Shown one piece after another: positions 51,980-64,000 of a stretch of DNA of 64,000 nt (the first letter of the stretch is position 1; each line of letters begins with the position of its first letter). Both the position numbers and the translations under genes were made by a program. The stretch covers positions 6,850,001 to 6,914,000 of the forward strand of contig NZ_CP029426.2 in the NCBI RefSeq assembly GCF_002266435.3, in the 5' to 3' direction. The DNA is from Bradyrhizobium amphicarpaeae. GTDB taxonomy: Bacteria; Pseudomonadota; Alphaproteobacteria; Rhizobiales; Xanthobacteraceae. The notes below the pieces were generated by a model that was not told the origin of the DNA, did not search any database, and saw nothing but the letters and a program-made list of their open reading frames with translations.

Positions 51980-52889
51980 GTCGAAGAAGCGCGACGTCGC
52001 GCTCGTCGTCGATGACTCTCCCGAGACGCTGCGGCTGCTCACCGACGCGCTCGACGGCGCCGGCATGACGGTGATGGTGGCACTCGACGGCGCGGCGGCG
52101 ATACGCATCATCGACCAGATCACGCCCGACATCGTCCTGCTCGACGCCATGATGCCCGGCATCGACGGCTTCGAGACCTGTCGCCGGCTCAAGCGCGATG
52201 CGGGCCTTGCCAATGTCCCCGTGATCTTCATGACGGGGCTTGCCGATACCGAGCATATCGTTCGCGGGCTCGAGGCCGGCGGCGTCGATTACGTGACCAA
52301 GCCGATCGTGATCGAGGAAATGCTGGCGCGCATCCGCGTCCATCTCGGCAATGCCCGCCTGACGCAGAGCGCGCGCGCTGCGCTGGACGTCTCCGGCCGC
52401 TTCCTGTTCGCGGTCGATCGCCGGGGCAATCTGCTGTGGGCGACGCCGCAGGCGCAGAAACTGCTGTCCAACCATCACGGCGCGCAGGCCGACGACTTCG
52501 TCCTGCCGCCGTCGCTGCTGCAATGGCTGGAGCAGGCCAAGGCCAAAGGCAGCTCGAAGTCCCAGGCGGTTTCCCTGCCGGACAATCCGCAGCTTCGGCT
52601 CTATTACATGGGCGAAACCGCGCCGAACGAATTTCTGCTGCGGCTCTCCAGGGAGTCCGGCACCGCGCTTCCCCCTGAATTCACCAGCGAGCTCGGCCTC
52701 ACCACCAGGGAAGGCGAGGTGCTGGCCTGGCTCAGCAAGGGCAAGACCAACCGCGACATCGCGCAAATCCTGGGCCTCAGCCCCCGCACGGTCGACAAGC
52801 ATCTCGAACAGATCTACGCCAAGCTCGGCGTGGAGAATAGGACGGCAGCAGCGGCGATCGCGGCGAACGCAACGCGAAGGAATTCGTAG
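51963..52889 (+). CDS. Response regulator with LuxR-type DNA-binding domain
   Basis: This is a 308-residue protein. The receiver domain covers residues 12-125 with acidic pocket Asp17-Asp18, phospho-acceptor Asp61 (VLLDAMMPG) and Lys113. A middle stretch of about 110 residues has PAS-like features (GRFLFAVDRRGNLLWATPQA). The C-terminal LuxR helix-turn-helix is LTTREGEVLAWLSKGKTNRD and the following helices. Its start lies inside the kinase gene (17-bp overlap; an alternative ATG at 51969 gives 11 bp), so the pair is co-translated. It is the natural partner of the transporter-kinase and the likely activator of the urt-fmd-ami operon. Confidence 0.92.
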   Translation: MRMNIESKKRDVALVVDDSPETLRLLTDALDGAGMTVMVALDGAAAIRIIDQITPDIVLLDAMMPGIDGFETCRRLKRDAGLANVPVIFMTGLADTEHIVRGLEAGGVDYVTKPIVIEEMLARIRVHLGNARLTQSARAALDVSGRFLFAVDRRGNLLWATPQAQKLLSNHHGAQADDFVLPPSLLQWLEQAKAKGSSKSQAVSLPDNPQLRLYYMGETAPNEFLLRLSRESGTALPPEFTSELGLTTREGEVLAWLSKGKTNRDIAQILGLSPRTVDKHLEQIYAKLGVENRTAAAAIAANATRRNS

Positions 52890-52932
52890 CGGTGATGGAT
52901 GTAGTGAGTTGGTACGCGCTCGCCCAACCAAC

Positions 52933-53077
52933 GGTGTCGTCCCGGACAAGCGAAGCGCAGATCCGGGACCCATAACCACAGGAAGCCATTTGGCGAAGAC
53001 TCGGAGTGACCCGCTCGCTCCACAACCACTTCCTGAGAGTATGGGTCCCGGGTTCGCTTCACGCCCCGGGACGACGG
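52933..53077. repeat. Palindromic repeat, GTCGTCCCGG family, between convergent genes
   Basis: The outer arms GTCGTCCCGG and CCGGGACGAC and the inner arms ATCCGGGACCCAT and ATGGGTCCCGG are complementary, giving a long hairpin. It fills the space between the response-regulator gene and the convergent monooxygenase gene. A short relative is at 6622-6653. Confidence 0.8.
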
Positions 53078-53119
53078 CGGAGTTTGTGGCGATCACCGCC
53101 AGCTTACATCGACAACGCC

Positions 53120-54622
53120 TCAGCCGTAAACGAACGCCTTGTCATCCAGATCCGTCTTCGGAATCTCGTCCTTTTCGGTCCAATAGTCCTGGCTGTGCTG
53201 CCATTCCGGCTTGTCGCCGCGCTTGGGAAGCAGGTCCATGTTGCGCATCATATAGCCGGGGTTGAAGTTTTCCGGATCGATCCAGGGCAGGATCGGCATG
53301 TTGTGATCCTCGGCGCGCAGTTTCACCTCGACCTTCTTCTTGCCCTTCGCCTTCATATGGCCAAGCAGCCGGCAGACGAAATCTGCGACCAGATCGACGC
53401 GCAGCGTCCAGCTGGCGCGGAAATAGCCGAACACCCAGACCATGTTCGGAACGCCGGTGAACATCATGCCGCGATAGGTGACGGTGTCGCCGAAGGCCAG
53501 CGGCTTGCCATCGATCTGGAAGGCGATGTCGCCCAGCGCGGCGAGATTGAAACCGGTGGCGGTGACGATGACATCGGCTTCCAGCAGCTTGCCTGACTTG
53601 AGCTGGATGCCGTTCTCGACGAAGCATTCGATCTCGTCGGTGACGACGGAAGCCTTGCCGCTGGCGATGCCCTTGAACAGATCGGCATCCGGCACGAAGG
53701 CGATGCGCTGCCGCCACGGCCGGTAGGTCGGCGTGAAGTGTTTATCGACGTCGTAATCCGGGCCGAGCACCGCGCTGATCTGGCCGATCAGCTCCTTCTT
53801 CACCTGCTCGGGCTTGGACAGGCAGAGTTTCGTGAACGCATCCTGCTCGAACAGGATCTTGCGGCGGACAATCTCGTGGATCCAGGTCTCGTCGACCTGA
53901 AGCCGGCGCAGCTCCTCCGCGATCTCGATGGCGTTGCGGCCGAGCCGGAAATAGGTCGGCGATCGCTGCAGCATGGTGACATGCGCGCACTTGTCCGCAA
54001 TGTTCGGCACCAGCGTTGCGGCAGTGGCGCCCGAGCCGATCACGACGACCTTCTTGTTCGTGAGGTCGAGATCATCAGGCCAGGTCTGCGGGTGGACGAT
54101 GCGGCCCTTGAAGCGATCGGCGCCCTTCCATTCCGGCGTGTAGCCTTCCGAATGCCGATAGTAGCCCTGGCACATCCAGAGGAAGTTCGCGGTGAAGGTC
54201 CGGGCCTCGCCAGTGTCTGTCGTCACGGCCTCGATGGTCCAGAGATTCTGCTCGCTCGACCAGCTGGCGGAACTGATCTTGTGCTTGTAGCGGATGTGCC
54301 GAGCGATATCGTTGTCGTCGATCACTTCCTTCATGTAGGCAAGGATTTCTTCGGCGGTCGCGATCGGCGGCCCCACCCAGGGCTTGAAGCTATAGCCGAA
54401 CGTATGGAGATCACTGTCCGAGCGGATGCCGGGATAGCGATGCGTGCTCCAGGTGCCGCCGAACGTCGCCTGCGTTTCCAGGATCACGTAGCTCGTACCG
54501 GGAAGCTGCTTGTCGATGTGATAGGCGCTGCCGATGCCGGAGATGCCGGCGCCGACGATCAGCACGTCGAAATGTTCAGAAGCCTGTTTGGCCGTGGCGT
54601 GACTGCGAACAGCGACATTCAT
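53120..54622 (-). CDS. Flavin-containing monooxygenase, Baeyer-Villiger type (EthA-like)
   Basis: This 500-residue class B flavoprotein monooxygenase uses FAD, NADPH and O2. The FAD Rossmann motif GAGISG is at residues 24-29 and the NADPH motif GSGATA at 196-201. The Baeyer-Villiger fingerprint FKGRIVHPQTWP is at 171-182. Members convert ketones to esters or oxidise sulfur compounds; EthA of Mycobacterium is a known relative in architecture. It stands alone, convergent with the response regulator. Substrate is unknown. Confidence 0.93.
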   Translation of the reverse strand: MNVAVRSHATAKQASEHFDVLIVGAGISGIGSAYHIDKQLPGTSYVILETQATFGGTWSTHRYPGIRSDSDLHTFGYSFKPWVGPPIATAEEILAYMKEVIDDNDIARHIRYKHKISSASWSSEQNLWTIEAVTTDTGEARTFTANFLWMCQGYYRHSEGYTPEWKGADRFKGRIVHPQTWPDDLDLTNKKVVVIGSGATAATLVPNIADKCAHVTMLQRSPTYFRLGRNAIEIAEELRRLQVDETWIHEIVRRKILFEQDAFTKLCLSKPEQVKKELIGQISAVLGPDYDVDKHFTPTYRPWRQRIAFVPDADLFKGIASGKASVVTDEIECFVENGIQLKSGKLLEADVIVTATGFNLAALGDIAFQIDGKPLAFGDTVTYRGMMFTGVPNMVWVFGYFRASWTLRVDLVADFVCRLLGHMKAKGKKKVEVKLRAEDHNMPILPWIDPENFNPGYMMRNMDLLPKRGDKPEWQHSQDYWTEKDEIPKTDLDDKAFVYG

Positions 54623-54746
54623 TGTTGCTTCTATGCCTTGCTTGTTTTTGTGGCCACCCTTGGTGGACGGCGCGTTTCCTCCGCGGCCGGCATGATCACC
54701 CGCCGCGCTTCCGCTTCAAAATGACATAGATCAAGTCGCGGTCAAA

Positions 54747-55508
54747 TCACAGCGCCGCACCCCAGCTCCGCGCAGTCTGCACGATCCAGTCGCGATAGAG
54801 CGTGAGCGGCGTGACCCCCGTCAATCCGCCGCAGCCATCGCCGGAGTTGGGTCCCGTCGCCCAGCTGATGACCCCGACAAGCACGGCGCCGTTCGGCTTG
54901 TCTTCGAACACGGGACCACCGGAATCGCCGGTACAAGCTCCAATTCCGTCGCGAACACCGTTGGTTACGGGATCGACCAGGCGGATCTGAAGCGTGCCGG
55001 GCTGGCCCGTGACGACGAGTCCCGCGACGCGCGTGGCCCCGCCGCTCCTGCCATCACCGCGCACGGTGACCCCGGTACCGGCGATGACGAAACGGCTCCC
55101 GACCCGGATCGGAATGTTCGGCGTGCCGACCGGCACCGTCGATTTTCCCTTGAGTGGAATTTCCAGCTGCAACAGCGCCACGTCTGCACCGGCGCGATGG
55201 ACTTGCGCCTTGTAGCCCGGATGGATCGCAATGGCGCGAACGTTCAGCAATTGAGGTTCGCCGCCGCTGCGGTCGACGATCTTGTAGTCCGCGCCGGGCG
55301 GCACGCAGTGCGCGCCGGTCAATACGATCTTCGGCGCGATCAGAGTGCCGGTGCAGGAATTACCACGCGAACCGACGATGGTGACGACAGCGCGCGCGGC
55401 GCCGTCGGTCTGCGGCGTGCCGCCTCCGACGATTGCATGAGCGGGTGCGGCGAGCAACAACACAGGCGCGATGAACGTGGCAAGCTTCTTCATGGGAACA
55501 TGCTTCAT
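54747..55508 (-). CDS. Secreted trypsin-like serine protease (S1 family)
   Basis: This 253-residue protein has a Sec signal peptide (KKLATFIAPVLLLAAPAHA). The mature start IVGGG follows immediately, as in trypsin-like enzymes. The catalytic triad is complete: His67 in TGAHC, Asp109 in GADVALLQL and Ser196 in CTGDSGGPV. Cysteines around the His and Ser loops suggest disulfides, so it acts in the periplasm or outside. The start could also be the ATG at 55493; neither has a clear ribosome site. No neighbour hints at a substrate. Confidence 0.92.
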   Translation of the reverse strand: MKHVPMKKLATFIAPVLLLAAPAHAIVGGGTPQTDGAARAVVTIVGSRGNSCTGTLIAPKIVLTGAHCVPPGADYKIVDRSGGEPQLLNVRAIAIHPGYKAQVHRAGADVALLQLEIPLKGKSTVPVGTPNIPIRVGSRFVIAGTGVTVRGDGRSGGATRVAGLVVTGQPGTLQIRLVDPVTNGVRDGIGACTGDSGGPVFEDKPNGAVLVGVISWATGPNSGDGCGGLTGVTPLTLYRDWIVQTARSWGAAL

Positions 55509-55593
55509 ATTGGCGGCGGCAGATTGCTTCGGACTGGTTCTTGCCGATACCCCATGCTAGCCCTCTTGGAAAGGAACTGACGAGGGCAGGATA

Positions 55594-56229
55594 GTGGCGA
55601 TCGAGGCTGTGATCTTTGATTTTGGCGGCGTGTTGACGAGTTCGCCATTCGAGGCCTTCGCGCGATTCGAGACCGAGCGCGGCCTTCCCGCCGACATCAT
55701 CCGGCGCACCAATGCCGCCAACCATTTGGAAAACGCCTGGGCCAGGTTCGAGCGGGCCGAGGTCGATATCGACACCTTCGACCAATTGTTCGCCACGGAA
55801 TCGCTCGCACTCGGCGCGGAGGTGCGCGGCCGCGACGTGCTGCCGCTGCTGCAGGGCGATCTGCGCCCTGAAATGGTCGAGGCGCTGAAGCGCATCAAGG
55901 CGCAATTCAAGACCGGCTGCATCACCAACAATCTGCCCGCCAACGCGATCGGCAGCCGGACCGGACGCTCACTCTATGTCGCCGAGGTGATGGTGCTGTT
56001 CGATCATGTCATCGAGTCCGCCAAGATCGGCCTGCGCAAGCCTGATCCGCGCATCTATCAGATGATGATCGAAACCCTGAAGGTCGATGCGAACAACTGC
56101 GTCTATCTCGACGATCTCGGCGTCAATTTGAAGCCGGCGCGCAAGATGGGCATGACCACCATCAAGGTCGCCAGCGGCGCGCAGGCAATTGCCGAGCTGG
56201 AGGCGGCGACGGGATTGAAGCTGAGCTAA
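55594..56229 (+). CDS. HAD superfamily hydrolase (IA type, DFGG variant)
   Basis: This 211-residue HAD hydrolase has the N-terminal motif FDFGGVLT, in which the usual second Asp of DxD is Gly. This is normal in the subgroup that includes the phosphatase-like parts of epoxide hydrolase and ACAD10-type proteins. The Ser/Thr motif region CITNN and the Lys/Asp motifs IGLRKPDPRIY and VYLDDLGVNLKPA are present. The start is GTG with an AGGA upstream. It is divergent from the protease and convergent with mtnA. The substrate, probably a small phosphate or halo compound, is unknown. Confidence 0.9.
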   Translation: MAIEAVIFDFGGVLTSSPFEAFARFETERGLPADIIRRTNAANHLENAWARFERAEVDIDTFDQLFATESLALGAEVRGRDVLPLLQGDLRPEMVEALKRIKAQFKTGCITNNLPANAIGSRTGRSLYVAEVMVLFDHVIESAKIGLRKPDPRIYQMMIETLKVDANNCVYLDDLGVNLKPARKMGMTTIKVASGAQAIAELEAATGLKLS

Positions 56230-56249
56230 CGTAATTTATTCCGCGGCCG

Positions 56250-56324
56250 TAGGGTGGGCAAAGCGGAGCGTGCCCACCATAAACAGATGGTGGGCACGGC
56301 GCCTCGCGCCTTTGCCCACCCTAC
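56250..56324. repeat. Palindromic repeat, GTAGGGTGGGCA family, between convergent genes
   Basis: The outer arms GTAGGGTGGGCAAAG and CTTTGCCCACCCTAC are nearly perfect complements, and the inner arms GTGCCCACCAT and ATGGTGGGCAC also pair. It lies between the HAD gene and the convergent mtnA gene, ending 5 bp before the mtnA stop codon. Confidence 0.85.
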
Positions 56325-56329
56325 GAGAC

Positions 56330-57436
56330 CTACTCCGCTGCGGCAGCGATCCGTTCCGGAAATGCCGCTGCCAACGAGGCGCGATCCGGCTTCAACACAC
56401 CGCGCTCGGTGATGAGGCCTGTCACGAGCCGTGCCGGCGTCACGTCGAAGGCATAATTCGCGACCGGCGATCCCTCGGGCACGATGCGCACCGTCTCCAG
56501 TCTTCCATCCGCGGTGCGGCCGGTCATGTCGGTCACCTCAACGCCGCTGCGCTGCTCGATCGGTATGTCGCGGATACCGTCATGGACGGCAAAATCGATC
56601 GTCGGCGACGGCAGCGCGACATAGAACGGCACGCCGTTGTCGTGGGCGGCAAGCGCCTTCAGATAGGTGCCGATCTTGTTGCAGACGTCGCCGTTGGCGG
56701 CGACGCGGTCGGTGCCGACGATGGCCAGATCGACCATGCCGTGCTGCATCAGATGGCCGCCGGTGTTGTCGGGGATCACCGTGTGCGGCACGCCGTGATG
56801 ACCGAGCTCCCAGGCGGTGAGCGAGGCGCCCTGGTTGCGCGGACGCGTCTCGTCGACCCAGACATGGATCCTGATGCCGCGCTCATGCGCGAGATAGATC
56901 GGCGCCGTCGCCGTGCCCCAATCGACGGTGGCGAGCCAGCCGGCATTGCAATGGGTCAGCACGTTGACGGTCTCGCCCGACTTCTTCGATGCGATCGCCT
57001 CGATCAGCTTCAGGCCGTTGCCGGCGATGCCGCGGTTGATCTCGACGTCCTGCTCGACGATCTCGTCGGCACGCGCATACGCCGCTTCGGCCCGCTCCAG
57101 CGGATCGATCGGCGCGAGCGCCATGCGCATCTCGTCCAGCGCCCATTTCAGGTTGATCGCGGTCGGCCGCGCCACCACGAGCGTGTCGTAGGCTCGTTTC
57201 AGGCCGGCGTCGGAGGCGTCCTCGCGCATGGCAAGCGCCATGCCGTAGGCCGCGGTCGCACCGATCAGCGGAGCGCCACGCACCAGCATGTCGCGGATTG
57301 CGACGGTTGCGTCTTCGCACGATTTCAGCTTCGCGACGACGAACTCGTGCGGCAACCTGCGCTGGTCGATCGCGCCGATCGACCAGCCGTCATGCTCGCG
57401 CCAGATGCTGCGGAAATGCTTGCCGTCGACCTTCAT
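56330..57436 (-). CDS. mtnA: S-methyl-5-thioribose-1-phosphate isomerase
   Basis: This 368-residue enzyme of the methionine salvage pathway converts methylthioribose-1-phosphate to methylthioribulose-1-phosphate. The N-terminal [20 protein letters not shown], the catalytic Cys in [17 protein letters not shown] and the Asp in [17 protein letters not shown] are the family hallmarks. AAGG precedes the ATG. It starts 13 bp after mtnP, so the two salvage steps form an operon. Later pathway genes are not in the window. Confidence 0.96.
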
Positions 57437-57449
57437 GGCATTCTGCCTT

Positions 57450-58328
<879 letters not shown>

Positions 58329-58416
58329 ACCTGCTCCACCTGCTCGCCACGTGCGACATGGTTAAGCTATGCCAGTTTTGCGGCGGTTTTGGAACGGGGG
58401 TGACAGTCTTGATGAC

Positions 58417-58502
58417 CGTCATTGCGAGGGGCGTAGCGACGAAGAAATCCAGACCGCGGCCTCAGAGGTAGTCTGGATTGCTTCGCTTCGCTCGCAATGA
58501 GG
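58417..58502. repeat. Dispersed palindromic repeat, CGTCATTGCGAG family, copy 3
   Basis: This is the third copy of the family seen at 16987 and 30128: left arm CGTCATTGCGAG, right arm CTCGCAATGAG, with inner AAATCCAGAC / GTCTGGATT. It lies between the carrier-protein gene and mtnP. Confidence 0.85.
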
Positions 58503-58518
58503 GAGGATAGAGCGGTGA

Positions 58519-58791
58519 CTATGCCGCGTTCGCCAGGTGCAGCTGCGTCGCCACCATCCGCTCCAGCGTCTCGACGGACTGGAAATTCTCCGGCGTGATC
58601 TCGGCTTGCGGGATGGTGAAGTCGAATTCGGCTTCGACGCCGAGCATCAGATTGACCATATCCATCGAGGTCAGGCCGGCATCGACGAGCTTGGCGGACG
58701 GCGTGACGTCCGCGGCGAGCGAATTCTGTTCGAGGATGCCCTTCACCAGCTTGATGATGCGATTGCGCAATTCGGTATCGAAGGCTTGCAT
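58519..58791 (-). CDS. Acyl/aminoacyl carrier protein
   Basis: This 90-residue four-helix carrier protein has the phosphopantetheine site DAGLTSMDMVNLM, with Ser42 as the attachment residue. The overall charge is acidic. The ATG at 58791 has GGGA 8 bases upstream; a TTG at 58797 is less likely. It is divergent from a flavoprotein and sits about 1.6 kb from the amino acid:[carrier protein] ligase, and known ligases of that type charge a carrier encoded close by. It therefore probably carries an aminoacyl (glycyl) thioester rather than a fatty acid. Confidence 0.88.
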   Translation of the reverse strand: MQAFDTELRNRIIKLVKGILEQNSLAADVTPSAKLVDAGLTSMDMVNLMLGVEAEFDFTIPQAEITPENFQSVETLERMVATQLHLANAA

Positions 58792-59147
58792 CGGCAAATT
58801 CCCGTCTGTCTGTCAAAGGTCGGACCGGCTTGCCGCTACGATGGGCACGGCCAGCGGGTCCCGCAATGGGCGACACCATTACTTCGCGTTTCTTAGTAAA
58901 CGATGACTCAGATTGTCTGGAATTCGACCTTCTTCCAGATCCCTAACGCGATGCCGGAAAAACGGCGGATGCAAACAACCGGACCTTAACTGTTCGTTCG
59001 GAATTGGGCTTTGTTTACCCTCTATTTCATCGACGAATTTGAATTAAATCCGTAGCCTCATCTCACAAGCAAGATGGCCGGAGGATCGCTTACGCGCATC
59101 GCGAATGATGCCGGCGATCTCGAACGGCAAACCGGAGGCGGACGAGT
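58792..59147. other. 356-bp divergent intergenic region of the carrier-protein module
   Basis: No gene is seen here. It separates the carrier-protein gene (minus) from the flavoprotein gene (plus) and must contain both promoters. The stretch 58985-59055 is clearly richer in A+T than its surroundings and is the best place for a promoter, but no convincing -35/-10 pair or operator was found. GGAGG for the flavoprotein gene is near 59133. Confidence 0.5.
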
Positions 59148-60365
59148 ATGAACGTGCGTGAAGCAGTCCTCACTGTCGACGAAACCGAAACGAGCTTCCT
59201 CGAGCAGGGCCCCTCCCTGATCGAGCGCGCCGCCCGGACCGCCGCGGCGGCCGCAGCCGACGCAGACGGAGTCGATCGCGACGCCCGCTTCCCCCACAAG
59301 GCTTTCGAGGTCGCGCGCGAGCAGAAGCTGCTCGGCGTCATGATCCCGGTCGAGTTCGGCGGCTTCGGTGCCTCCATCTACGACGTCACCGACATCTGCT
59401 ACACGCTCGGACGGGCCTGCGCCTCGACCGCGATGATCTACGCGATGCACCAGACCAAGGTTGCCTGCGTCATCCGGCACGGTCACGGCATCCCCTGGAT
59501 GGAAACCATGATGCGCCGGGTCGCCCGCGACCAGTGGCTGCTCGCCTCCTCCACCACCGAAGGCCAGAACGGCGGCAACATCCGCGCCAGCGCCGCTGCC
59601 GTCGACCACGCCGGCGATACCGTTTCACTGGTGCGCGATGCCACCGTGATCTCCTACGGCGCGGAAGCCGACGGCCTCGTCACCATCGCCCGCCGCGCCA
59701 CCGAGGCCGCCGCGTCCGACCAGGTTCTGCTGGCGCTCGCCAAGGACGACTACTCGCTGAAGCGGACGCTGGGCTGGGAAACGCTCGGCATGCGCGGCAC
59801 CTGCTCGACCGGCTTCGAGCTGAAAGTGGATTGCCCCGCCGATCGCGTCTTCCCGGAATCCTATGACAAGATCCACGCCCAGACCATGACGCCGTTCGCG
59901 CATCTGTGCTGGTCGTCGGCCTGGACCGGCATCGCCGCCGCAGCCGTGACCCGCGCGCAGGCCTTCATCCGCAAGGCGGCCCGCAGCTCCGGCGGCCAGA
60001 TGCCGCCAGCCGCGGCGCATTTCACCGCCGCCAAGATGTCGCTGGCGAAGCTTCGCGCGCTGCTGTCGGCCAATATCGATGCCTTCGCCCGCGCCGAGCA
60101 TGACGAGCGTGCGCTGAGTTCGCTCGACTTCCAGTCGTCGATCACGCTTCTGAAGGTGCAGGCCTCCGAACTCGCGGTCGAGACCGTGATGCATGCGATG
60201 CGCACGGCCGGCCTCTCCGGCTACCGCAACGACGGCGAATTCACCATGGGCCGGCATCTCCGCGACGTGCTGTCGTCCCCGATCATGATCAACAACGACC
60301 GCATTCTGGCCAATGCGGCGACATCGACGCTGATGAGCGGCGTGCCGACAAGCCTTCGCGACTGA
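59148..60365 (+). CDS. Acyl-CoA dehydrogenase-like flavoprotein of the carrier-protein module
   Basis: This 405-residue protein has the acyl-CoA dehydrogenase fold (LLGVMIPVEFGGFGASIYDV; ASSTTEGQNGGNIR; C-terminal GRHLRDVLSSPIMINNDRIL). It is divergent from standard members. At the position of the medium-chain enzyme's catalytic Glu (EGT motif) the alignment by eye gives Ile (IMINND), and the usual GGGSD motif is replaced by GQNGGN. Such relatives can act on carrier-bound substrates, as prolyl-carrier oxidases do. It is followed after 39 bp by the carrier-protein ligase, so it may oxidise an aminoacyl-carrier thioester; this is inference. Confidence 0.85.
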   Translation: MNVREAVLTVDETETSFLEQGPSLIERAARTAAAAAADADGVDRDARFPHKAFEVAREQKLLGVMIPVEFGGFGASIYDVTDICYTLGRACASTAMIYAMHQTKVACVIRHGHGIPWMETMMRRVARDQWLLASSTTEGQNGGNIRASAAAVDHAGDTVSLVRDATVISYGAEADGLVTIARRATEAAASDQVLLALAKDDYSLKRTLGWETLGMRGTCSTGFELKVDCPADRVFPESYDKIHAQTMTPFAHLCWSSAWTGIAAAAVTRAQAFIRKAARSSGGQMPPAAAHFTAAKMSLAKLRALLSANIDAFARAEHDERALSSLDFQSSITLLKVQASELAVETVMHAMRTAGLSGYRNDGEFTMGRHLRDVLSSPIMINNDRILANAATSTLMSGVPTSLRD

Positions 60366-60404
60366 ATCAATAACAACAAATTCAAGATAGCAGGACATCG
60401 CGCC

Positions 60405-61385
60405 ATGAATATTGCCATTCTCTCCGACTCGCCCGCGACCGCGCCGCAAATGGTCGATCCGCTCGATCATCTCGCCGACAAGCTGTTCCACCGCATGGGT
60501 GCCGACGGCGTCTACGCCCGCACCGCACTCTATGAAGGCGTCGTCGAGAAGCTCGCCGCGCTGATCACTGGCCATCGCGAGAGCGGCACCGAGGTGATGC
60601 GCTTCCCGCCGGTGATGAGCCGGGCCCAACTGGAGAAATCCGGCTATCTCAAGAGCTTCCCGAACCTGCTCGGCTGCGTCTGCGGCCTGCACGGCACCGA
60701 ACGCGAGATCAACGCTGCGGTGAGCCGCTTCGATGCCGGCGGCGACTGGACCACCTCGCTGTCGCCCGCCGACCTCGTACTGTCGCCCGCCGCCTGCTAT
60801 CCGGTCTATCCGATCGCGGCGAGCCGCGGACCTTTGCCGAAGGGCGGCCTGCGCTTCGACGTCGCCGCGGATTGCTTCCGCCGCGAGCCGTCGAAGCATC
60901 TCGACCGGCTGCAATCGTTCCGGATGCGCGAATATGTCTGCATCGGCACAGCCGATGACGTCTCCGATTTCCGCGACCGCTGGATGGTGCGCGCGCAGGC
61001 GATCGCGACCGACCTCGGCCTGACCTTCCGTGTCGACTACGCCAGCGATCCTTTCTTCGGCCGCGTCGGCCAGATGAAGGCGGTGAGCCAGAAGCAGCAG
61101 CAGCTCAAGTTCGAGCTGCTCATTCCGCTGCGCTCGGAAGAGCAGCCGACGGCCTGCATGAGCTTCAACTATCATCGCGAGCATTTCGGCACGACCTGGG
61201 GAATCCAGGATGCCAATGGCGAGCCGGCCCATACCGGCTGCGTCGCCTTCGGGATGGACCGGCTGGCGGTCGCCATGTTCCACACCCACGGCACCGATCT
61301 TTCCGCCTGGCCCGCCAAGGTGCGGGACGTCCTGGGCCTGCAGCCGCAGGTCGCGGCCGACGCCCATGTCGAAGGTTGGCGCTAA
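60405..61385 (+). CDS. Amino acid--[acyl-carrier-protein] ligase (truncated seryl-tRNA-synthetase homologue)
   Basis: This 326-residue class II aminoacyl-tRNA-synthetase-like enzyme lacks a tRNA-binding arm. It activates an amino acid with ATP and loads it on the phosphopantetheine of a carrier protein. Motif 2 is DCFRREPSKHLDRLQSFRMR and motif 3 is AFGMDRLAVAMF. The zinc ligands known for the Bradyrhizobium enzyme Bll0957 (Cys131, Glu176, Cys279) are at exactly these positions, and I recall that enzyme prefers glycine. It lies between the flavoprotein and a GNAT-like gene, with the carrier protein divergent nearby. The cellular end product is unknown. Confidence 0.95.
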   Translation: MNIAILSDSPATAPQMVDPLDHLADKLFHRMGADGVYARTALYEGVVEKLAALITGHRESGTEVMRFPPVMSRAQLEKSGYLKSFPNLLGCVCGLHGTEREINAAVSRFDAGGDWTTSLSPADLVLSPAACYPVYPIAASRGPLPKGGLRFDVAADCFRREPSKHLDRLQSFRMREYVCIGTADDVSDFRDRWMVRAQAIATDLGLTFRVDYASDPFFGRVGQMKAVSQKQQQLKFELLIPLRSEEQPTACMSFNYHREHFGTTWGIQDANGEPAHTGCVAFGMDRLAVAMFHTHGTDLSAWPAKVRDVLGLQPQVAADAHVEGWR

Positions 61386-61412
61386 CAGCTTGAACCAGAT
61401 CCGGAGGACCGC

Positions 61413-62378
61413 ATGAGCGAAGAGTGCGGAGCGGTTCTCCGAAAAGATCATGCTGAAACAACAGACCAAACGAGGCCTGTCATTTCCACGGGTAAGACGA
61501 GCGTGATTCACACCAAGGTGCGATGCCGCGAGATCACCGAGTCGGACGCCGAAGCGGTCGCGGATCTGCTGTCGCGCGGCTTCGTCGGTCGCTCACGGAA
61601 CTATTGGATCCAGGGTCTGCGCCGGCAGGCCTTCCGATCCGTTCCGGAGGGTTATCCCCGCTTCGGCTACATGCTCGATAGTGACGGCACGCCAGTCGGC
61701 GTGCTGCTACTGATCTACACGGCGCGGAAGAACGGCGAAGAGACCACCATCCAGTGCAATCTGTCGAGCTGGTATGTCGATCCCGCCTACCGCAATTATG
61801 CCCCGCTGCTGACCAAGATCGCGCAGCGGCACAAGGACGTGACTTATTTCAACATCAGCCCGGCGCCGTGGACCTGGCCGATCATCGAAACGCAGGGCTT
61901 TCGCGCCTATTGCCGCGGCATATTCTTCTCGGTGCCTGCCCTGGCGCGGCCCCCGCGCTGGAGCGAGATCGAGGTCATCCCGCCTCACGCCAAGACGATC
62001 GAGGGGCTTTCCGAAGCCGAAGCCGAACTGCTGACGCGGCATGCGCGCTACAATTGCCTCAGCCTCGTCTGCCGCACGCCGAAGGGAACATTCCCCTTCA
62101 TCCTGCAACCGGTGCGCATCCGCCGCGGCTTCCTCGCGCCCCCTGCGATGAAGCTGATCTATTGCCGCAGTGCTGCGGAATACGCCCTCTGTGCAGGGCG
62201 CATCGGCCGCCTGCTGCTGCGGCTCGGCAAGATCGCGGTGACGATCGATTCCAATGGGCCGATTCCCGGCCTGGTCGGTTTCTATACCGAGCGGCGCGGC
62301 CGCAAATATTTCAAAGGACCGCACCGGCCGCAACTCGGTGATCTCACCGATACGGAACTGGTGCTGTACGGGCCGTAA
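61413..62378 (+). CDS. GNAT-like acyltransferase of the carrier-protein module
   Basis: This 321-residue protein has a GNAT-like N-terminal half: REITESDAEAVADLLSRGF, then GVLLLIYTARKNGEETTIQC and the acyl-CoA-loop-like LSSWYVDPAYRNYAPLLTKI. The C-terminal half is not recognised. GGAGG lies 5 bases before the ATG. It is 27 bp after the ligase, so it belongs to the same operon. It could transfer the carrier-bound aminoacyl group to an acceptor, in the way that aminoacyl transferases with GNAT folds do; this is inference. Confidence 0.82.
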   Translation: MSEECGAVLRKDHAETTDQTRPVISTGKTSVIHTKVRCREITESDAEAVADLLSRGFVGRSRNYWIQGLRRQAFRSVPEGYPRFGYMLDSDGTPVGVLLLIYTARKNGEETTIQCNLSSWYVDPAYRNYAPLLTKIAQRHKDVTYFNISPAPWTWPIIETQGFRAYCRGIFFSVPALARPPRWSEIEVIPPHAKTIEGLSEAEAELLTRHARYNCLSLVCRTPKGTFPFILQPVRIRRGFLAPPAMKLIYCRSAAEYALCAGRIGRLLLRLGKIAVTIDSNGPIPGLVGFYTERRGRKYFKGPHRPQLGDLTDTELVLYGP

Positions 62379-62578
62379 CGAGGGCTGTCGGACCCAACTA
62401 CCGCTGTGCCGCGCGATGGCGACCAACTCTTGCAGGCACCTCAGCAATTGGGACGGGATCCTCATCGCCGGTCACCCTCCGTAAACTACTGCGCTTAAGG
62501 GAATTTTCCGGCCTCTTCGCTACACTCGGTGGTTGAATTAGGTTGCGTTAGGCCTATTGCCGAGATCCCGCCGAACCC

Positions 62579-64000
62579 ATGATGTCGACCCACGACAACG
62601 AGCTTGGTGCACACCGCGAGCAAGGCCCGGAAGCCCTGGTCGCGCTGAGCCAGCTTGCGCTCGACCGCATGGAGCAGGGCGTCTGCGTCTACGACGCCGA
62701 TAACCGGATCGTGCTGGTCAACCAACGCTATCTGTCGCTGTTCGACATGTCGGCCGACATCGTGCGGGTGGGCACGAGCTACCGCGAGGTGCTCGCGCAT
62801 AGTGCGACGCGCGGCAATTTTGCCCAGGATCAGCTCGACACGCTGTATTCGTCCCGGATCGCGCAGATCGCAGGCGGAAAGCCGTTCCGCACCGAGCAGC
62901 GGCTTGCGAGCGGCCTCGTCATGTCGCTCGAGATGAAGCCGCTTCCCGGCGGCGGCTGGATGACGATCTGCGACGATGTCACCCGCCTCGCCCGGCTCGA
63001 AAGCGAATTACGCGTGCAAACCGAGCGCAGCCAGCACGCGCTCGCCAACATGTCGCACGGCCTCATCATGTACGACGCCGACAGCCGCGTCGTCGTTTGC
63101 AACGAACGCTTCCTGAACCTCTACAATCTCGATTCCGACGTCGTGAAACCAGGCGTCCCGCATCGTGCGGTGCTCGACCATTGGGTCTCGCGCGGCAATC
63201 AGCCGGGCATGTCTGCCGACGAATTTCACGTCTCCAGGTTGGAGGACGTGCGCACCAGAAGGGCGAAATCCCTGCTGGTGATGCGTTACGACGGACGCAT
63301 GGTGCAGACGGTCTCCCGCTTCCTGCCCGACGGCGGCTGGGTCACCGTGCACGAGGACGTCACGGAGCGGTTGCAATACGAGGAAACGCTGAGGCAGCAG
63401 AATGTCATGCTCGATGCGGCGTTGGAGAACATGGCGCACGGGCTCGCCTTCTACGACAGCGACATGCGGCTGCGGATCTGCAACACCACCTATCGCAAAC
63501 TCTACCGGTTGTCGCCAGAGGAGACCAGGCCCGGCACGCACCTGGCCGAGCTGATCGAGCGTTCGATGGCGAACGGCGCGTTCTCTTCCGAATACAGCCC
63601 GCAGCAGCTGCTGGAAGCCGCCAGTGCCAGGATCGCCGATCGCGACGCCTCTCCGATGCGCCGACGGATGTCGGACGACACCGTGATTTCGGTCAGGTAC
63701 TGCGCTCTAGCGCAGGGCGGCTTCGTCGCCACCTACGAGGACATCACCGAGCGCGAACATGCGATCGGGGAACTGAGCGAGCAGTATCGCCGCTTCGACG
63801 CCGCACTGAACAACATGAGCCAGGGCCTGTGCATGCTCGATGCGAGCCTGCACGTCATCGTGTGCAATCGCCGCTACATCGAGATGTACGGCTTGTCGCC
63901 CGATATCGTGAAGCCCGGCGTCTCGATGCGCGAGATCATGGAGCACAGCTGCGAGCTCGGCATCCACCAGAACACCACAGCCGCGCGGCTCTATGCCGAT
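62579..64000 (+). CDS. Tandem PAS-domain signalling protein, 3' end beyond the window
   Basis: The frame is open for 474 codons to the window edge. It contains four PAS units of about 126 residues, starting near residues 28, 153, 280 and 409. Each begins with a version of ALxNMxxGLxxYDxDxRxxxCN, the pattern of the PAS_7 group, and most have a later xPGxxxREVLxH-type segment. No signal peptide or membrane helix is seen. In Bradyrhizobium such arrays usually precede GGDEF-EAL or histidine kinase domains, but the output domain is outside this window. Confidence 0.88.
   Translation, partial: MMSTHDNELGAHREQGPEALVALSQLALDRMEQGVCVYDADNRIVLVNQRYLSLFDMSADIVRVGTSYREVLAHSATRGNFAQDQLDTLYSSRIAQIAGGKPFRTEQRLASGLVMSLEMKPLPGGGWMTICDDVTRLARLESELRVQTERSQHALANMSHGLIMYDADSRVVVCNERFLNLYNLDSDVVKPGVPHRAVLDHWVSRGNQPGMSADEFHVSRLEDVRTRRAKSLLVMRYDGRMVQTVSRFLPDGGWVTVHEDVTERLQYEETLRQQNVMLDAALENMAHGLAFYDSDMRLRICNTTYRKLYRLSPEETRPGTHLAELIERSMANGAFSSEYSPQQLLEAASARIADRDASPMRRRMSDDTVISVRYCALAQGGFVATYEDITEREHAIGELSEQYRRFDAALNNMSQGLCMLDASLHVIVCNRRYIEMYGLSPDIVKPGVSMREIMEHSCELGIHQNTTAARLYAD

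Follow-up and report, generated by a model that had tools for sequence, protein, structure and literature searches.

A Bradyrhizobium amino acid:[carrier protein] ligase locus as the possible activating half of a two-carrier pathway

In the D-alanylation of teichoic acid, which involves DltA, DltC and DltB, an amino acid is placed on a small carrier protein and passed from there to a transferase. Bradyrhizobium has an amino acid:[carrier protein] ligase, Bll0957, whose substrate is reported to be glycine and which is said to load the glycyl group onto a carrier; to our knowledge, the fate of the charged carrier has been open since these ligases were described in 2010. A system of Agrobacterium and its kin was outlined in a note added in proof to PMC2922099, where the ligase is linked to a carrier, a redox enzyme, the uncharacterised Atu2574 and a glycosidase. 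The same source predicts that the amino acid is first modified, probably by monooxygenation, and then attached to a sugar of the cell surface. The present analysis concerns a stretch of 64,000 nucleotides from Bradyrhizobium amphicarpaeae (hereafter the window), which spans C1:6850001-6914000 of a 7.03 Mb single-contig genome (G000). Genes for a carrier protein (CP1), an acyl-CoA-dehydrogenase-like flavoprotein, an amino acid:[carrier protein] ligase and a GNAT-like transferase (hereafter GNAT) lie together there. We consider the chances about even that the window encodes that half of a two-carrier biosynthetic pathway in which the amino acid is activated; the GNAT would then join the cargo of both carriers.

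All four genes listed by the initial annotation were confirmed. By sequence, the window ligase is a known enzyme of the Bll0957 type: it scored 486.7 bits against the family model NF005479 (curated cutoff 357) and matched Bll0957 (PDB 3mey) over its full length with 713 bits. No second ligase copy was found in the window's genome. The residues singled out at the outset held in every sequence compared, namely the phosphopantetheine site of CP1, Ser42 (57 of 57), and Cys131, Glu176 and Cys279 of the ligase, presumably zinc ligands (84 of 84). CP1 has 90 amino acids counted from the ATG at 58791; its open reading frame (ORF) opens at a TTG at 58797, from which the same serine is Ser44.

Relatives of the ligase were sought with NF005479 in three overlapping genome sets, drawn from the class (385 genomes; a match in 19 at E up to 1e-3, 10 over cutoff), the phylum (398 genomes; 44 at 1e-6, 28 over cutoff) and the order (297 genomes; 70 at 1e-6, 64 over cutoff). 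Up to 20 kb was fetched around 60 of the 70 distinct over-cutoff ligases outside Bradyrhizobium and around 20 of the 33 below-cutoff places; all 10 unfetched over-cutoff ligases have DUF1839. These 80 loci, three Bradyrhizobium loci and the window made up the 84 rows of a ligase tree, built by a quick method with long branches flagged. Three groups were obtained, each forming one side of a branch: type A (49 rows, support 96), type B (15 rows, support 90), into which the window ligase falls, and type C (20 rows, support 100).

The type B ligase, the GNAT and an acyl-AMP ligase module co-occur, and in the window's genome they are divided between two loci. The flavoprotein gene adjoins the ligase gene in all 11 type B loci fetched, and CP1 was found in nine of them, always divergent. 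GNAT was present in all 16 type B genomes; among the 297 genomes of the order it occurred in 30, comprising these 16, 13 type A genomes and one genome (G909) that lacks the ligase and has kept the GNAT with a second carrier (ACP2, attachment site GLDSL/FDSL). The acyl-AMP ligase was found in 13 members of a 227-genome draw of the order (E up to 1e-60), namely 12 type B genomes and G909. Outside Bradyrhizobium, 27 GNAT copies were seen (types A and B and G909) and 18 were looked at; a carrier gene lies at most 101 bp away in 12 of these, and an AMP-ligase gene at most 350 bp away in 15. Most copies are surrounded by genes for ACP2, the acyl-AMP ligase, a FabG-like short-chain dehydrogenase/reductase (SDR) and a long-chain acyl-CoA synthetase, the same four that stand in a row at the second locus of the window's genome. 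Fuller clusters add varying sets of a thiamine pyrophosphate (TPP) enzyme, a class IV aminotransferase, a cupin, a MetY-like pyridoxal phosphate (PLP) enzyme resembling O-acetylhomoserine sulfhydrylases (FUB7 among them), homoserine O-succinyltransferase (HTS) and an alpha/beta hydrolase.

The same association was seen within Bradyrhizobium, where 15 of 19 genomes carry the ligase. Of these, G1010 carries a type A locus alone and lacks GNAT; in each of the remaining 14, GNAT lies no more than about 2.6 kb from the ligase and the acyl-AMP ligase match exceeds 500 bits. Neither ligase nor GNAT was found in G1003 and G1004, and G1006 gave only a 71-bit GNAT-like match; the AMP-ligase matches in these three and in G1010 were all generic, none above 61 bits. 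In G1001, where the ligase was not found, a type B cluster has decayed (L273, C59:74000-93900), leaving HTS, CP1, ACP2 and much of both AMP-ligases together with fragments of the TPP enzyme, GNAT, MetY and flavoprotein genes. Strain ARR65 (L088) carries hydrolase, MetY and HTS genes after GNAT at the same chromosomal position as in the window's lineage, which suggests that the latter lost or moved the remaining cluster genes.

In the proposed pathway, the ligase would form an aminoacyl-AMP, probably from glycine, and load CP1, a step whose biochemistry comes from the homologue Bll0957 and for which the window supplies sequence resemblance. The flavoprotein would next act on the aminoacyl thioester as an oxygenase or C-N oxidase. 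At the second locus (Table 1), where the linkage itself was observed, the long-chain acyl-CoA synthetase, acyl-AMP ligase and FabG-like reductase would put an acyl group on ACP2, and the GNAT may then move this group to the amine of glycyl-CP1, taking the role of a condensation domain, with release of an N-acyl-glycine-type lipid or intermediate. In fuller relatives HTS, the MetY-like enzyme, the aminotransferase and the TPP enzyme might extend the product; the window's own lineage seems to make do with a reduced version. We infer membership of both loci in one pathway, as well as the flavoprotein chemistry, the donor and acceptor of the GNAT and the nature of the product. The GNAT more likely supplies an acyl group than removes glycine, judging from its genomic partners, because its nearest neighbours outside Bradyrhizobium are mostly the second carrier and the AMP-ligase. 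A broader and more tentative idea, which we rate as somewhat doubtful, is that Bradyrhizobium and other members of its order share a widespread and so far undescribed natural product pathway, in effect a dissociated nonribosomal peptide synthetase (NRPS) made without NRPS parts: one carrier would be loaded by a ligase derived from an aminoacyl-tRNA synthetase (aaRS) and the other by an acyl-AMP ligase, with a GNAT serving as a free-standing condensation domain between them and, in the fuller clusters, a homoserine-derived gamma-substitution. No condensation domain was among the Pfam matches of the four window proteins; the remaining genome was not searched for one.

Several observations weigh against the two-carrier pathway. 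In the window's lineage the GNAT gene adjoins the ligase gene and not that of ACP2, and the genome has a single HTS homologue at 45% identity, HTS being the only one of the extra cluster genes that was sought. L163 and L183 yielded no CP1 in the vicinity of their ligases. Among the 18 GNAT copies, three (two in L256, one in L258) lack a carrier as well as any AMP-ligase close by, and nine further copies were left out, belonging to eight of the 12 genomes of one genus (g471) and, as a second copy, to G547. The GNAT-like proteins of 13 of the 48 type A genomes (28-37% identity) are encoded away from the ligase, so that the GNAT need not serve the ligase. Beside some type C ligases (L228-L230, L232) GNATs lie at 266-293 bp and no such acyl-AMP ligase or ACP2 was found, an arrangement that favours direct action on the carrier charged by the ligase itself. 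The co-occurrence statistics are inflated by kinship. The reactions after loading are a proposal only, and loading itself is known from the homologue and not from the window protein.

A simpler possibility is that the four window genes suffice: CP1 would be charged with glycine, the flavoprotein would modify it there, and the GNAT would hand the glycyl group on to a small molecule, lipid or protein. Support for it comes from the close relatives of the window. Of 155 such relatives the best 80 (hereafter Bradyrhizobium-type loci) were fetched around the ligase; nearly all are titled Bradyrhizobium, the others including L011 (Bradyrhizobiaceae) and L043 (Frankia), and their ligases are 85-97% identical to that of the window. 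Order and orientation of the four genes were the same in 80 of 80, with the carrier gene always near the ligase and divergent from the flavoprotein and ligase genes, and the median ratio of nonsynonymous to synonymous rates (dN/dS) relative to the window was 0.15 for CP1, 0.06 for the flavoprotein, 0.11 for the ligase and 0.14 for the GNAT. A gene for methylthioadenosine (MTA) phosphorylase, however, flanks the module in 77 of the 80 (two stretches end too soon and L027 lacks it), so that conservation of the four genes within Bradyrhizobium alone says little. GNAT-family genes also flank six of the 20 type C ligases, where no flavoprotein or acyl-AMP ligase of the present kinds was found; these type C loci are the chief argument for a GNAT that works directly with the carrier of a ligase, and hence for the four-gene form. 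Yet the distribution of the acyl-AMP ligase follows that of the GNAT and of the type B ligase almost without exception, the GNAT outside Bradyrhizobium stands mostly beside ACP2 and not CP1, and G909 combines GNAT and ACP2 with no ligase; a self-sufficient four-gene pathway is for these reasons judged unlikely. The compact module proposed by the initial annotation is real in that its genes stay together in the Bradyrhizobium-type loci, and incomplete in that the acyl-AMP ligase and ACP2 partners lie at a second locus. One Bradyrhizobium strain was seen to have two four-gene loci with equal match values (L053 and L057), about 386 kb apart on one contig.

Type A loci have other partners. Their gene order is carrier, flavoprotein, ligase, DUF1839 and GH2-like glycosidase, and the 49 fetched loci hold the carrier in 48, the flavoprotein in 47, DUF1839 in 47 and the glycosidase in 46, the last three being missing in L159 and L164. 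Among the recurring neighbour families, for each of which a single representative was scanned, are glycosyltransferases, a bacterial sugar transferase, a Wzx-like flippase and a Wzz-like protein. DUF1839 occurs in 48 of the 297 genomes of the order, all of which carry an over-cutoff ligase. The expectation that carrier and flavoprotein genes travel with the ligase held in both types; for GNAT it held in type B, with one of the 30 GNAT genomes lacking the ligase, and failed in type A, where no GNAT gene was found in any of the 49 loci and DUF1839 follows the ligase in nearly all. From gene order, Atu2574 is probably DUF1839, and the StRS-ACP-redox-Atu2574-glycosidase system of Agrobacterium and its kin would then be type A. 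In one genus with type A ligases a GNAT of the present family, with its own carrier and AMP-ligase, lies away from the ligase (L263, L264, L266), and the L264 carrier resembles AmcB with 47.6 bits, under the cutoff of 80.

The type A loci raise the possibility that in type B, too, an amino sugar at the cell surface receives the amino acid once this has been loaded and modified. The prediction in PMC2922099 concerns just such a reaction for type A, the type A neighbours fit it, and in PMC10318531 DUF1839 is placed among papain-like enzymes, with glycan processing suggested from context; the GNAT model moreover aligns with glucosamine N-acetyltransferases among many GNATs. Against this, DUF1839 was found in none of the 16 type B genomes, and a search of the window's genome gave no match at E up to 1e-10. 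The 11 type B loci that were fetched gave no glycosidase of the type A family, and their recurring neighbours are AMP-ligases and PLP and TPP enzymes. Sugar aminoacylation is accordingly considered improbable for the window.

The flavoprotein matched Pfam Acyl-CoA_dh_N and Acyl-CoA_dh_1 over cutoff; its nearest NCBIfam model, FadE16, scored 93.5 bits, far under the cutoff of 600. A profile of 62 sequences was aligned to two PDB chains, with Glu376 of MCAD and Glu254 of IVD taken as the usual catalytic positions. The first (column 381) is occupied by Ile in 59 and Val in three sequences, the second (column 251) by Ser in 37, Ala in 21, Cys in two and Thr in two, so that a catalytic Glu is absent from both canonical positions in 62 of 62. 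His101, His252, Trp255, Trp259, Asn383 and Arg385 are invariant. For lack of a beta carbon, glycine cannot undergo alpha,beta-desaturation. Since both catalytic positions are replaced and glycine lacks that carbon, dehydrogenation is doubtful, and of the oxidation step assumed earlier what survives is probably an oxygenation or C-N oxidation. The oxygenation reading agrees with the 2010 prediction in PMC2922099.

Replacement of the catalytic positions could also mean that the charged carrier is itself a stable end state that serves regulation or the buffering of amino acids, and that the flavoprotein and GNAT are not its enzymes. PMC10888616 reports higher transcript and protein levels of bll0957 and bll0958 in a phaR mutant under low oxygen, PhaR being a regulator tied to polyhydroxyalkanoate metabolism, and lists a PhaR-type motif at -52 of bll0958 (acd). 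The window has CGCATCGCGAAT upstream of the flavoprotein gene, which shares 11 of 12 letters with the listed motif; with up to one mismatch the motif matches twice in the window against 2.4 times expected by chance, and is weak alone. The linkage with biosynthetic genes, the joint decay in G1001 and the flavoprotein's median dN/dS of 0.064, a sign of strong purifying selection, speak against an end state, which we hold to be very improbable.

The GNAT-like protein has a confidently predicted tandem-GNAT fold, one shared with other proteins, and the fold alone shows no function; no Pfam or NCBIfam family matched it at E up to 0.1. In the motif Q/R-x-x-G-x-G/A, which we take to be the pyrophosphate loop of the GNAT superfamily, Arg127 is kept in 19 of 19 sequences and the usual Gly is replaced by Ala in 18 and Ser in one. 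This replacement makes a carrier-bound acyl donor plausible rather than a CoA-bound one. The 50 structural matches listed include glucosamine N-acetyltransferases; OlsB, FeeM and LuxI were not named among them and are not thereby excluded. A hairpin repeat of about 53 bases between the ligase and GNAT genes matches six other places in the genome (78-85% identity), and the 117-nt gap folds with a z-score of -2.9. Rhizobia have dispersed intergenic repeats of similar appearance, and the hairpin may uncouple GNAT expression from the ligase. Because the repeat falls inside the N-terminal extension of the GNAT ORF, this extension of 30 codons is likely spurious.

Table 1 Features of the window locus (window positions) and of the second locus (C1 positions) in the same genome.
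Feature	Coordinates	Strand	Evidence
CP1, carrier protein	58519..58791	-	Pfam PP-binding over cutoff; Ser conserved 57/57
Motif CGCATCGCGAAT	59095..59106	+	11/12 letters like PhaR-type motif (PMC10888616)
Acyl-CoA-dehydrogenase-like flavoprotein, 405 aa	59148..60365	+	Pfam; alignment to two PDB chains; column counts
Amino acid:[carrier protein] ligase, 326 aa	60405..61385	+	NF005479 over cutoff; PDB 3mey; type B in tree
Hairpin repeat, ligase-GNAT gap	61398..61463	+	Genome similarity matches; fold of 117-nt gap
GNAT-like transferase, ~291 aa, probable start	61503..62378	+	ORF opens at 61413; tandem GNAT fold
Long-chain acyl-CoA synthetase, ACP2, acyl-AMP ligase and FabG-like SDR in a row	C1:987054-991341 (L253:7055-11342)		
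Acyl-AMP ligase ortholog	C1:989265-990614		533 bits, 58% identity

The genes mtnA and MTA phosphorylase adjoin the module on the minus strand (window 56330-58328), and no support for a functional link was obtained. Together with MetY and HTS in relatives, this neighbourhood was considered as a sign of a homoserine lactone synthase; the idea was set aside because, among the fetched loci, MTA phosphorylase is a neighbour only in the Bradyrhizobium-type ones, and because the single HTS homologue of the window's genome lies elsewhere. A link to cispentacin was likewise dropped: CP1 resembles AmcB weakly (30 bits against a cutoff of 80), and PMC10698177, on cispentacin, concerns a type II polyketide synthase.

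Type C ligases score below the NF005479 cutoff (125-175 bits) and are encoded by ORFs of 319-444 aa. A flavoprotein of the window's family is absent from the 20 fetched type C stretches, seven of which hold an MBOAT gene and six a GNAT of the same broad family (13 of 20 for either). A profile of type C GNATs built without the window protein matched it with 30 bits (E 9e-8). The one MBOAT tested scored 180 bits with the DltB model (cutoff 375), and a small carrier gene of another kind stands beside some type C ligases, e.g. in L227 and L230. The ligase lies beside an MBOAT gene in L217-L219, L224 and L234-L236, with a small carrier as well in L217, L224, L234 and L235; such loci may represent an aaRS-based equivalent of the Dlt system. 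In L228 and L229 the ligase has GNAT on one side and an electron-transfer-flavoprotein:quinone oxidoreductase gene on the other (family scanned in L229).

The window is an incomplete view of a real, under-studied system. Already known are the Bll0957-type ligase and carrier and the type A model of 2010; the GNAT and second-carrier module of type B is new here. No prior work on type B was found in the open-licence literature, where only PMC10888616 covers bll0957/bll0958, and no paper was found there on bll6282 and its neighbours. The earlier statement that the fate of the glycyl thioester is not known stands for type B within these searches and needs amending for type A, given the prediction in PMC2922099. 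The survey divides the question of the charged carrier into two cases. Type A is linked to sugars and has a papain-like protein as its candidate transferase; type B would concern a small molecule and has GNAT together with a second carrier, and its partner genes can now be named at a second locus of the window's own genome. Should the GNAT prove to condense groups held by two carriers, it would offer a simple substitute for the NRPS condensation domain.

Comparison with known systems places the window beside several, each with differences. As in the Dlt system, an amino acid is loaded on a small carrier and would be passed to a transferase, and MBOAT genes occur in type C loci; the window locus, however, has no such MBOAT (the type C MBOAT profile gave no match in window 52001-64000), and its ligase is aaRS-derived and not an adenylation domain. 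OlsB, FeeM, LuxI and N-myristoyltransferase are GNAT-fold enzymes that transfer acyl groups to amines from carriers or CoA, and have no sequence family in common with the window GNAT. The prolyl-carrier dehydrogenases of pyrrole biosynthesis (PDB 4irn, RedW) also place a flavoprotein of the acyl-CoA dehydrogenase fold beside an aminoacyl carrier, but similarity to the present flavoprotein is weak (26-28 bits), the catalytic Glu is not conserved here and glycine is not a desaturable substrate; prolyl-type desaturation was rejected on the weak matches and the replaced Glu. The Agrobacterium StRS-ACP system shares with type B a homologous and co-located ligase, carrier and flavoprotein, whereas type B lacks DUF1839 and the glycosidase and has a divergent carrier gene, the GNAT and the module of second carrier and acyl-AMP ligase. 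The Bll0957 system is closest, with a ligase alike over its full length and over the cutoff of the same family model; as far as we have seen or recall, published work on it ends at the charged carrier, and to this the present analysis adds the GNAT and the second-carrier module.

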